Assembly: GCF_028290435.1 (NCBI RefSeq)
Contig: NZ_JAQGJV010000082.1
Span: 1 to 64,000, forward strand
From: Devosia sp.
GTDB lineage: Bacteria; Pseudomonadota; Alphaproteobacteria; Rhizobiales; Devosiaceae
Direction of reading: 5' to 3'
Length of the DNA stretch: 64,000 bases
Each line of letters begins with the position of its first letter. Within the stretch, counting starts at the first letter, position 1. The position numbers and the translations under genes were made by a program. The notes under the pieces were generated by a model, which saw only the letters and a list, made by a program, of their open reading frames with translations, did not search any database and was not told the origin of the DNA. Positions 56,616 through 64,000 of the stretch are shown in pieces.

Positions 56616-56936
56616 TTAGCCCTGCCGCGTCGGCACATGCAGCACCAACCCATCAAGCACATCCTTGATCTTGATCTGGCACCCCAGCCGACTCGTCGGC
56701 TTCACATCAAACGCAAAATCCAACATGTCTTCTTCCATGTTCGACGGCGGCCCGACGACTTCGGTCCAGGCATCATCCACGTAAACATGGCACGTCGCGC
56801 AGGTACACGCCCCGCCGCATTCCCCGATAATGCCGGGCACGCCATTGATCACCGCGGTCTCCATCACGGTCGAACCGTTCTGCGCCTCGGTCTCGATGCG
56901 CTCGCCATCGGGCTCGACGAAAGTCACTTTAGCCAT
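56616..56936 (-). CDS. 2Fe-2S ferredoxin (adrenodoxin-type), second copy
   Basis: IGECGGACTCATCHVYVDDAWTEVVGPPSNMEEDMLDFAFDVKPTSRLGCQI. Confidence 0.94.
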   Translation of the reverse strand: MAKVTFVEPDGERIETEAQNGSTVMETAVINGVPGIIGECGGACTCATCHVYVDDAWTEVVGPPSNMEEDMLDFAFDVKPTSRLGCQIKIKDVLDGLVLHVPTRQG

Positions 56937-59829: not shown

Positions 59830-60189
59830 TTGAGCGAAACGCACCGCGCCACGGCGATCATCCCGACCAGCGACCTTGATGCCAGTCAGGCCTTCTACGA
59901 GCTTCTCGGGTTTACGTTGGCCAGCGACTACGGCGACTATCGAATCCTGACCGATGGGCGAGGTTGGGATCTTCACCTACGGCAACAGGCCAACTGGCCG
60001 CCCACGCCTGAGGACAATCCGTTCGGCCTCTATCTATATGTGGACGATGTCGACGCTGTCGCGGCCAGGGTGCGCGATCGCATCATCGAGAAAGGCGCGC
60101 CACACCTCAAGCCTTGGGGAACCTACGAGTTCGCCGTCAGTGATCCCAGCGGGACGCTGGTCCGGGTCGGTCGCGCGGCGAAGAGCTAG
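59830..60189 (+). CDS. VOC/glyoxalase-family protein
   Basis: ATAIIPTSDLDASQAFYELLGFTLASDYGDYRILTDGRGWDLHL...WGTYEFAVSDPSGTLVRVG. Confidence 0.9.
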   Translation: MSETHRATAIIPTSDLDASQAFYELLGFTLASDYGDYRILTDGRGWDLHLRQQANWPPTPEDNPFGLYLYVDDVDAVAARVRDRIIEKGAPHLKPWGTYEFAVSDPSGTLVRVGRAAKS

Positions 60190-60578
60190 ATCGGCTCGTT
60201 GCTCAGCATTTCCGCAACGAACGCGCTAACCTCTTCCACCGCTACGCCAATGTCATCAATCTGCTCGGGGCTGAGCGGCCGACCGGCTTTGAGCTCGGTC
60301 TCGGCGGCGCGGGCCAATTCGGCGATGGACCAGGCGCCAACGCCGCTGGCGGCGCCTTTGAGCGAGTGCAGGTTCAACGCCAGATCATCGAAGGTGCTCG
60401 ATTGCTGCAGCCGCGCAAAATACGTCTTGGCAGTGGTGTCGAACAGCCGCAGGATTTCATGCTCGAGACCGGCATCACCCAGGCATTGGCGCGCCAGATG
60501 AACCAGGTCGATCGGGCGCGCTGGACGTCGGGAAATGTCGGCGCCCGGATTTTCGGCGGAGACTGCGTTCTGGGCCAT
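60186..60578 (-). CDS. Stand-alone Hpt (histidine phosphotransfer) domain protein
   Basis: LNLHSLKGAASGVGAWSIAELARAAETELKAG, the Hpt phospho-accepting H-x-LKG motif. Confidence 0.87.
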   Translation of the reverse strand: MAQNAVSAENPGADISRRPARPIDLVHLARQCLGDAGLEHEILRLFDTTAKTYFARLQQSSTFDDLALNLHSLKGAASGVGAWSIAELARAAETELKAGRPLSPEQIDDIGVAVEEVSAFVAEMLSNEPI

Positions 60579-60939: not shown

Positions 60940-63900
60940 ATGGCGAATAACCCCACCCCAGCAAACGATCCCGCCGCCTTGGCATTCTCAGCGGTTGAGG
61001 ATGCCCTCAAGGAATCGGTTTTCGGTCTGGATGCACCGGCGCCCAAGGAAACTGCTTCCGAACGACGCCTGAGCGATTCGTCATCGACCTCAACGACCGC
61101 TGCGCCGTCACCCGGCCGCTCTGAACGCCTGCGCGCTGCCGATAAGATCGCCAGTCAGGCCGGCAATATCGCCAATGACGACCGCTTCCCGACGTCCAAA
61201 ATTCTCTATGGCCTGCAGAGCAAGTCGTCCAACGCGCCGACCGTGATCGCGCTGGTGCTGTCGATCATCTGGCTGGTGGCCACCGGGGCCGCCGCCTATA
61301 TCCGCTATGGCACCCAGCTGAACAATTTGGGCAGCTTTGTCGGCACCCTCGATTTCATCAGCATGGTCGCCATTCTGGTGCTGCCAGTTCTCGGCTTTTT
61401 CGCCGTCGCAACCCTGTTCCGCCGTGCCGCCGACCTGCGCAATGCCGCCTCATCGATCACTCAGGCGGCGATCCGGCTGGCCGAGCCCGAAGTCACCGCT
61501 GCCGACAAGGTCGCCTCGGTGGGCCAGGCCGTTCGCCGCGAGGTCAACGCGCTGGGCGACGGGCTGGAACGCGCCCTGTCGCGTGCCGGCGAGCTCGAAG
61601 TGATGATCCACAACGAGGTCACCGCGCTCGAACGCACCTATTCCGACAACGAATCACGCATGCGCGCCCTGATCTCCGAACTGGCCAGCCAGCGCGAAAG
61701 CGTTTTGACTAATACCGAGCGGGTCCGCGAAGCCATCACTGAAAGCCATACCGGCCTGGTGTTCGACCTCGACATGATCAGCCAGCGCATTGCCGGCACC
61801 ATCGTGGAAAGCGGCGGCAACCTCACCAAGGCGCTGGAAACCGCCGGCAACACGCTGACCAATGCCTTCGGCGATCGCACCGAAGGCTTCGTCACGCTGG
61901 TGGATAACCGCACCGGTGAATTCCTGTCGGCCATCGACGATAGCGCCGGCCGCCTGGCGCTGACCTTCGAAGACCATTCCTCCACCATGTCGCGTGACTT
62001 TGAAACGCGCACCATCGAATTGTCCTCGACCATCGACAACCGCATGACGGCGCTTACCGATGCGCTCGATAGCCGGTCCACCACCCTCTCGGGCGCCATC
62101 GAAGAGCGCACCAATGCGCTGTCGAGCGTGCTGACCGAAGGCGGCTCGACGCTGCTAGAACAGCTCCGCGACCGCGGCGAGCAGGTGAGCACCGCGCTCG
62201 ATCTGGTCGGCTCGCGCATTGCCGAGAATATCGGCCTGCGTTCGAACGAAGCCGAGTCGATGCTGACCTCGCTGACGCGCCAGCTCGATGAGAGCGTCTC
62301 CATCCAGCTCAACTCGCTCGATAGCCGCCTGCAATCGGCGCTGATCGAAATCAACGGCGCGTTGGACGATACGTCCGAGCGCGCCCGCATCACCCTCAGC
62401 TCGGCCGGTGCCGACTCGTTGGGCCAGTTCGACGCCCGGCTGACTGAAATCGCAGGCATTCTCGACTCGCGCCTGCAGACGCTGGATGGCGTTATCGGCG
62501 ACAAGGGCGACAACCTGATCGAGCGTCTCGACGCGCAGGGCTCAAGCTTTGCCGCCCGCGCCAATGTGCTGGAAATGGCGCTGGACGAACAATCGGGTCG
62601 CTTCAACGACCTCATCACCCAGCACACGGCTGGGATTGCCGCAACGATGGAAAGCGGCAGCCGAACCGTCAACAATGCGTTGGACAGCCGCACCAAAGCT
62701 CTCGACGACACCCTGGAAAGCCGCACCCAGATTCTCAGCGAAACCCTGGAAGGCCGCACGGCAGCGCTCAGCGCAGCCCTCGAGGGTCGCACGGCCACCT
62801 TCGGCGATACGCTGGAAGGCCGTACCGCTACCCTCAGCGAAGCGCTGGAAAGCCGCACCAGGCAGCTCAACGACGCACTGGAAGGCCGCACCAAGGCCAT
62901 CCATGACACGCTTGAGGGCCATTCGCGCGAAATCACCGACTCGCTGCTCGGCCATGCCGACCTCATCACCGAGGCCATGGACGGCCGCACGCAGCGACTC
63001 GACGAGTTGTTGACAACGCGCGCTGGCGAAATCAATTCCGCGCTCGACACCCGCACGCAGGAACTGAACGAGACCCTGTCTGGCCGCAGCCAGGAGATGA
63101 GCGAAGCCATCCGGCTGCGCTCGCAGGAGCTGGGCGAAACCCTCGCGGGTAGCACGTCGGCATTCGACCAGGCCATTTCGGGTCGTACGCAGCGTCTGGC
63201 CGACACCTTGGCCGAGCGCACCACTGAACTCTCGACGCAGATCGACGAGCGCGCCGGCCTGCTCACCAGCCAGTTGGATGAACGCGGCGCAGCCCTGACC
63301 AGCGCGCTGGACGGCGGCACGCAAAAGCTAGCCAGCGCGGTGGGCACTCGCACCCAGCAGCTTGCAGACGCCTTGGGCGCCCGCACCCAGCAGCTGTCCG
63401 ATACCCTGGCGACCCACACCACCTCGATCGGCGAGACCATCGGCCTGCGCACCAGCGAGCTGGCCGACACCCTCATTCACCAGAGCGAAGACGCCCGCGC
63501 CAAGATCGACGGCTCGATGCGCACCGCAACCGACACCATGACCGATCGCGTCTCGTCCATGTCGGAGATGATCGCCCTCAAGGTTGCCGAAGTGAACGAC
63601 AATCTGGGCCAGGGCATCGACACAGCGGTCAAGCGCATTTCCGATGCCGAAGCCGGCGTCACCGCCCGCATCGACCATGCCAGCCAGACCGTCAGCAATA
63701 GCGCCCGCAAGGCCGCCGACCTGATCGAAAGCAACGTCAACTCGGCCCGCAAGACCATTACCGATCTGGTCGATCAGCGCCTGGGCACCCTGCCCGAGGC
63801 CATCACCGCCCGCGCCGATATCACCGCTGAGCGCCTCTCGGCCCTCAATGCCTCGATCAATACCTCGATCACCCAGTCGATGGCCGATCTCGAAGCCGGC

Positions 63901-64000
63901 GCCGACCGGATCGAGGAAACCATCTCCACCCGCATCACGCTGGCGACAGAGGCCATCTCCAACGACGTCACCAGCACTGCCAACCGCATGGACCTGGCTG
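60940..64000 (+). CDS. Giant membrane-anchored hendecad-repeat protein, GPR (Growth Pole Ring)-like; 3' end outside window
   Basis: My translation: MANNPTPANDPAALAFSAVEDALKESVFGLD...TVIALVLSIIWLVATGAAAYI...FISMVAILVLPVLGFFAVATLF then >800 residues of helical repeats; open to the window end. Not in ORF track. Confidence 0.85.
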   Translation, partial: MANNPTPANDPAALAFSAVEDALKESVFGLDAPAPKETASERRLSDSSSTSTTAAPSPGRSERLRAADKIASQAGNIANDDRFPTSKILYGLQSKSSNAPTVIALVLSIIWLVATGAAAYIRYGTQLNNLGSFVGTLDFISMVAILVLPVLGFFAVATLFRRAADLRNAASSITQAAIRLAEPEVTAADKVASVGQAVRREVNALGDGLERALSRAGELEVMIHNEVTALERTYSDNESRMRALISELASQRESVLTNTERVREAITESHTGLVFDLDMISQRIAGTIVESGGNLTKALETAGNTLTNAFGDRTEGFVTLVDNRTGEFLSAIDDSAGRLALTFEDHSSTMSRDFETRTIELSSTIDNRMTALTDALDSRSTTLSGAIEERTNALSSVLTEGGSTLLEQLRDRGEQVSTALDLVGSRIAENIGLRSNEAESMLTSLTRQLDESVSIQLNSLDSRLQSALIEINGALDDTSERARITLSSAGADSLGQFDARLTEIAGILDSRLQTLDGVIGDKGDNLIERLDAQGSSFAARANVLEMALDEQSGRFNDLITQHTAGIAATMESGSRTVNNALDSRTKALDDTLESRTQILSETLEGRTAALSAALEGRTATFGDTLEGRTATLSEALESRTRQLNDALEGRTKAIHDTLEGHSREITDSLLGHADLITEAMDGRTQRLDELLTTRAGEINSALDTRTQELNETLSGRSQEMSEAIRLRSQELGETLAGSTSAFDQAISGRTQRLADTLAERTTELSTQIDERAGLLTSQLDERGAALTSALDGGTQKLASAVGTRTQQLADALGARTQQLSDTLATHTTSIGETIGLRTSELADTLIHQSEDARAKIDGSMRTATDTMTDRVSSMSEMIALKVAEVNDNLGQGIDTAVKRISDAEAGVTARIDHASQTVSNSARKAADLIESNVNSARKTITDLVDQRLGTLPEAITARADITAERLSALNASINTSITQSMADLEAGADRIEETISTRITLATEAISNDVTSTANRMDLA
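62683..63474 (+). repeat. 24 in-register 33-bp (11-residue) repeats within the giant gene
   Basis: DSRTKALDDTL|ESRTQILSETL|EGRTAALSAAL|EGRTATFGDTL|EGRTATLSEAL|ESRTRQLNDAL|EGRTKAIHDTL|...|GTRTQQLADAL|GARTQQLSDTL|ATHTTSIGETI|GLRTSELADTL; exactly 24 x 33 nt without indels. Confidence 0.93.

Follow-up and report, generated by a model that had tools for sequence, protein, structure and literature searches.

How Rhizobiales build the cell pole without MreB, whose absence has been described for the order (PMC8546619), is an open question, and the growth pole ring protein GPR is a leading candidate organizer. The rod of GPR has so far been described mainly as apolipoprotein-like. We analyzed 64,000 nucleotides of a Devosia sp. 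contig (NZ_JAQGJV010000082.1, positions 1 to 64,000; hereafter, the window), at the far end of which an original prediction, made from the letters of the sequence, had placed a giant hendecad-repeat membrane protein of the GPR type. The locus raises the question of whether this protein is the GPR of its lineage and, if so, what kind of structure its rod forms.

Gene and domain architecture

The gpr/rgsE-type gene lies on the forward strand and fills the last part of the window (60940 to 64000, codons 1 to 1,020 of 1,839). Its ATG-initiated frame leaves the window at the end, and the remainder, which the original prediction had called for, was recovered from the contig, where the frame closes (60940 to 66459) and encodes a protein of 1,839 amino acids. 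The two N-terminal transmembrane (TM) segments noticed at the outset correspond to hydrophobic stretches at residues 101 to 119 (61240 to 61296, forward strand; Kyte-Doolittle value of 2.26 in a 19-residue window) and 139 to 157 (61354 to 61410, forward strand; 2.64). Alignment defined a conserved juxtamembrane helix starting with DLRNAA (residues 165 to 237; 61432 to 61650, forward strand) that has a period of ~3.6. An AlphaFold2 model of residues 75 to 294 (mean pLDDT of 83.7), a monomer model and as such silent on coiled-coil formation, predicted that the second TM helix passes unbroken into the start of the rod.

The two TM segments are followed by a helical rod of ~1,390 residues, a Pro- and Gln-rich linker at about residues 1,600 to 1,700, and a conserved C-terminal domain of 137 residues. 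The Rhizobiaceae version of this last domain is all-helical by prediction (pTM of 0.71). Searches of solved structures and folds returned no convincing structural match for the C-terminal domain and nothing usable for the N-terminal region.

Homology, copy number, and genomic neighborhood

Both nonrepetitive ends of the protein are homologous to a GPR-length protein from the Agrobacterium group (L103). Residues 78 to 260, which comprise the TM hairpin and juxtamembrane helix, were 45% identical (E value of 1.7e-48), and the C-terminal domain was 41% identical (E value of 3.5e-35). These matches lie outside the rod, so the likeness to GPR extends beyond that of a generic coiled coil. The TM hairpin, Pro-rich linker, and C-terminal domain come in the same order here and in the GPR-length Agrobacterium-group proteins, two of which (L103 and L107) are exactly 2,115 residues long, equal to the published length of Agrobacterium GPR (PMC8262873). 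The rod itself matched PF01442, the Pfam family of GPR, in eight stretches along its length (197 bits, cut-off of 90). Because PF01442 is unspecific (weak matches in 7 of 14 control genomes, none over the cut-off genome-wide), the C-terminal domain was used to find homologs. It gave a single match per genome in all 61 genomes of the genus and in 146 of the 150 sampled from the order; in the order sample, the match usually closed a frame of about 900 to 2,900 amino acids. Two of the four genomes of the order with no match came from one family, whose other members match weakly.

The genes around gpr are shared as well. Its upstream neighbor, a divergent Hpt-domain gene (60186 to 60578, reverse strand; PF01627), is found at the equivalent position in 46 of 76 Rhizobiaceae loci and in 21 of the 23 from its own genus. 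Farther upstream lies a ferredoxin-type gene (56616 to 56936, reverse strand), named from its sequence and not by family search; 74 of the 76 Rhizobiaceae loci have such a gene upstream, encoded on the opposite strand. With these common neighbors, the homologous ends, and the PF01442 match, the GPR-type identity originally proposed is supported: by sequence and synteny, the window protein is an ortholog of GPR/RgsE. It adds a member to a known family, homologs of GPR having already been reported in all Rhizobiales families (PMC7327166). Directly downstream of gpr, the genome of the window and only one close relative carry an LtrA-family gene (contig positions 66804 to 68012) at a site occupied by an MFS gene in other members of the genus; it looks like a recent insertion.

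GPR of Agrobacterium tumefaciens (Atu1348) resembles the window protein in its two N-terminal TM segments, PF01442 rod, Pro-rich region, conserved C-terminal domain, and hendecad period of 3.66, and the Hpt and ferredoxin neighbors recur in Agrobacterium-group loci. It differs in length (2,115 versus 1,839 amino acids, with fewer hendecads here), and some Agrobacterium-group species have 22-mer units, unlike the 11-mer units seen here. In A. tumefaciens, GPR forms a ring at the growing pole, and cells become round upon its loss (PMC8262873). RgsE of Sinorhizobium meliloti (SMc00190; 2,089 amino acids versus 1,839 here) and the Brucella abortus homolog are assigned to the same family from the literature and not from a sequence comparison of ours; both are membrane-anchored, cytoplasmic, and localized at the growing pole (PMC7327166, PMC9938171). 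S. meliloti Rm2011 lacking rgsE is viable, slow, and misshapen (PMC7327166).

An in-register hendecad rod

The most regular part of the rod is an array of 24 ungapped hendecads (residues 582 to 845; 62683 to 63474, forward strand). The prediction of 24 contiguous 11-residue repeats with no indel was borne out by the identity at lag 11, which was 0.395, compared with 0.099 ± 0.018 in 1,000 shuffles (maximum of 0.158). Within the repeat, position 1 is E/D, position 2 is G/S/T, position 3 is R (19 of 24 hendecads), position 4 is T (17/24), position 7 is L/I (21/24), position 9 is D/E (17/24), position 10 is A/T (20/24), and position 11 is L/I (22/24), with positions 5, 6, and 8 variable. Hydrophobic residues at positions 7 and 11 persist over a longest run of 28 hendecads, against at most 4 in shuffles. 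At the DNA level the 33-bp units are degenerate, and TRF detected just 2.4 and 5.7 copies, at a 71 to 80% match.

The array is the sharpest part of a longer structure. Phase analysis placed it within a single in-register stripe that begins near residue 238 and ends near residue 1,160, in which the 11/3 hydrophobic phase is continuous with a period of 3.66; the part in the window (61651 to 64000, forward strand) reaches residue 1020, and the feature as a whole extends to about residue 1162. The stripe breaks at about residues 1,160 to 1,210 and is followed by a second in-register stretch at about residues 1,206 to 1,558. Across the whole rod, the hydrophobic period was 3.66, with a power of 99 versus no more than 11 in 200 shuffles, and the periodicity analysis of hydrophobic residues along the rod gave no heptad signal. 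The first stripe, examined in nine proteins of the order, begins at around residues 190 to 280 and varies in length from 836 to 2,024 residues.

The C-terminal domain is not confined to the order: it was found in 111 of the 289 genomes of a class-wide sample, which includes a few members of the order. The rods of these other-order proteins have sharp periods of either ~3.57 (25/7, with lags of 25 and 50) or 3.62 (29/8, with lags of 29 and 58), with peak powers of 24 to 110 versus ~4 in shuffles. Such periods combine 7 and 11 in the manner of coiled coils. For several of these proteins, the N-terminal region matched a Rhizobiales profile (E values of about 1e-5 to 1e-22), and for the remainder it gave a weak match or none, so that full-length homology is established for some of them, though not for all. 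In several of the genera concerned, rod length is almost constant at 45 to 70% identity.

Such a stripe could face another helix or a membrane. An apolipoprotein-like, lipid-related rod has been proposed for GPR (PMC8262873), and membrane-associated 11-mer helices are well known; the rod could accordingly be an amphipathic 11/3 helix that lies on the membrane surface, in the style of apolipoproteins or alpha-synuclein, and binds growth-pole lipids without forming any coiled coil. The PF01442 match is in keeping with this reading, as are matches of the array to human apolipoprotein A-IV in the PDB (E values of 1.4e-5 and 1.2e-4). Apolipoprotein A-IV, itself a PF01442 protein, shares the 11/22-residue helical periodicity and a local sequence match with the window rod, but it is small, secreted, and lipid-binding, whereas the rod is far longer, acidic, poor in aromatic residues, and anchored by TM segments. 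The rod has a net charge of -80, 1.6% aromatics, and a hydrophobic moment of 0.33 versus 0.64 for the class A peptide 18A, and on its surface a narrow Leu/Leu/Thr stripe is bordered by Arg on one side and by acidic residues on the opposite side. On account of this stripe and flank pattern, the charge, the scarcity of aromatics, and the halved moment, we favor a coiled coil. The rods of homologs with the same C-terminal domain, whose 25/7 and 29/8 periods are typical of coiled coils, point in the same direction, and we consider a surface-lying helix unlikely. Lipid binding by the rod is possible, to judge from the PF01442 and apolipoprotein A-IV matches. Our literature search found no paper joining hendecad with apolipoprotein.

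Rod length changes in whole hendecads

The original prediction had guessed that the repeats may expand or contract between strains. Between species they do so in exact 11-residue steps: among nearest relatives, 54 of 58 rod indels within the genus and 66 of 75 within Rhizobiaceae, or 120 of 133 together, were a multiple of 11 residues long. Most of the exceptions left a remainder of 7 or 4 after division by 11, which corresponds to heptad-type steps. When gap costs were loosened, multiples of 11 made up 123 of 154 indels in rods versus 2 of 246 elsewhere in the same proteins, where the N-terminal part was counted together with the tail (the Pro-rich linker and the C-terminal domain); Fisher p values for these counts are descriptive only, since pairs share lineages. 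Indels of 6 residues or fewer occurred at 0.07 per 1,000 amino acids compared in rods versus 10.2 in the other parts, a ~140-fold deficit of short in-frame indels in rods. The continuous 11/3 hydrophobic stripe and the in-register indels are together what a hendecad coiled coil would be expected to show.

Because an aligner could favor period-11 gaps in repeats, raw rod lengths were also measured, as the alignment-free distance between two conserved anchors. Fifteen of the 21 rod lengths from the genus fell in one class modulo 11, despite spanning 1,270 to 1,794 residues with 18 distinct values, and 43 of 48 from Rhizobiaceae fell in two classes. No such clustering of rod lengths was seen for moduli 7, 9, 10, 12, or 13. 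Longer rods and units of 22 residues (66 bp) characterize part of the Agrobacterium group, and eight records close to A. tumefaciens have rods of identical length (1,686 residues).

Steps of this kind could in principle arise neutrally, as by-products of slippage and recombination among 33-bp repeats, without any selection for register. Some indels do lie in segments with near-identical adjoining 33-mers (at three loci), and some Agrobacterium-group arrays are made of similar 22-mers. Slippage contributes to rod length change, and recombination between 33-bp units could account for part of the indel pattern. However, many of the 11n indels occur where tandem DNA identity is as low as 0.45 to 0.7, for which slippage alone is insufficient, and register is maintained in rod stretches without visible DNA repeats. 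A wholly neutral origin thus seems quite improbable. The 11n indels at low DNA identity and the missing short in-frame indels make selection on phase the better explanation of the pattern, we infer.

This register rule, seen across many species, amounts to a concrete structural constraint, the rod being one phase-locked element over hundreds of residues. We found no description of whole-hendecad length changes or of lineage-specific pitch in the literature covered, which did not include the original 2019 GPR paper, and the words "repeat," "heptad," and "hendecad" do not appear in the main GPR paper (PMC8262873). As far as this literature shows, the original 2019 paper aside, the rule is new. 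It may bear on the interpretation of a published 21-residue coiled-coil deletion (PMC8262873): by our calculation, loss of 21 residues displaces the stripe by roughly a quarter turn, and loss of 22 would not.

Proposed organization of the protein at the growth pole

Taken as a whole, the evidence makes it likely that the window protein is the GPR/RgsE of its lineage, a TM-anchored hendecad coiled-coil rod that acts as a growth-pole organizer and whose stripe phase is kept by selection. Most likely it is a near-straight scaffold that tethers the growth-pole machinery. The two TM helices would anchor the protein in the inner membrane, and the second would extend into a cytoplasmic rod of ~1,390 residues. 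As one continuous, fully extended helix with a rise of 0.15 nm per residue, it would reach a length of ~200 nm here and ~250 nm in Agrobacterium. An 11/3 stripe over hundreds of residues would need a partner surface, presumably that of further strands in a near-straight, slightly right-handed, multistranded coiled coil. By analogy with Agrobacterium, Sinorhizobium, and Brucella, the protein would localize at the growing pole and organize envelope synthesis there. With the stripe phase maintained by selection, whole hendecads would be gained or lost, and length would change while the surface pattern stayed constant.

Rod pitch and MreB across Alphaproteobacteria

MreB was searched at an E value of no more than 1e-40 in the samples of the order and the class, and the genome of the window has no MreB over the cut-off. 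Among 99 sampled genomes, 37 of the 45 without MreB and 4 of the 54 with MreB had a rod period of 3.645 or more, in a comparison that entered every other-order protein as MreB-positive and left phylogeny uncontrolled. Within the order, the median frame length was 1,106 in MreB-positive genomes (n = 16) versus 1,844 in the others (n = 122), some of the short frames ending at contig edges. Because the association, though strong, is confounded by phylogeny, we do not use MreB absence as proof of anything about rod length or pitch. The MreB-positive families of the order have shorter GPR-type proteins, mostly with a period of ~3.62; three families have ~3.66.

More tentatively, GPR-family rods might be phase-locked rulers in which the number of hendecads sets a growth-pole distance and whose pitch changed by discrete steps (25/7, 29/8, 11/3) as lineages lost MreB and turned to polar growth; we regard this as a doubtful conjecture. 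The published GPR ring is 200 nm wide and lies ~100 nm from the tip, and the match of a ~200-nm rod to a 200-nm ring is suggestive only.

Many alphaproteobacteria that contain MreB encode relatives with this C-terminal domain, and a similarity of GPR to TipN, a polar organizer and polarity factor of Caulobacter, has been noted in the literature (PMC8546619), from which, and not from a sequence comparison of ours, we take it. The protein might then be a general polarity scaffold like TipN and not the organizer of a growth ring. Against this, sequence and synteny together make it a clear ortholog of Agrobacterium GPR, and the combination of a hendecad rod with MreB absence groups it with polar growers; we judge a TipN-like role to be very unlikely. 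That the protein is an unrelated giant coiled-coil or ZorA-like protein, with a purely compositional likeness to GPR, is almost certainly wrong: the NCBIfam ZorA (Zorya defense) matches fall in the coiled-coil part and were rejected as coiled-coil resemblance (40.3 bits versus a cut-off of 190), and the homologous nonrepetitive ends and the neighborhood in common with GPR contradict such a reading.

Two long antisense frames were also seen, one of 612 codons overlying the repeats (61638 to 63476, reverse strand) and another of 709 codons further on, and were dismissed as probable by-products of repeat composition and codon bias.
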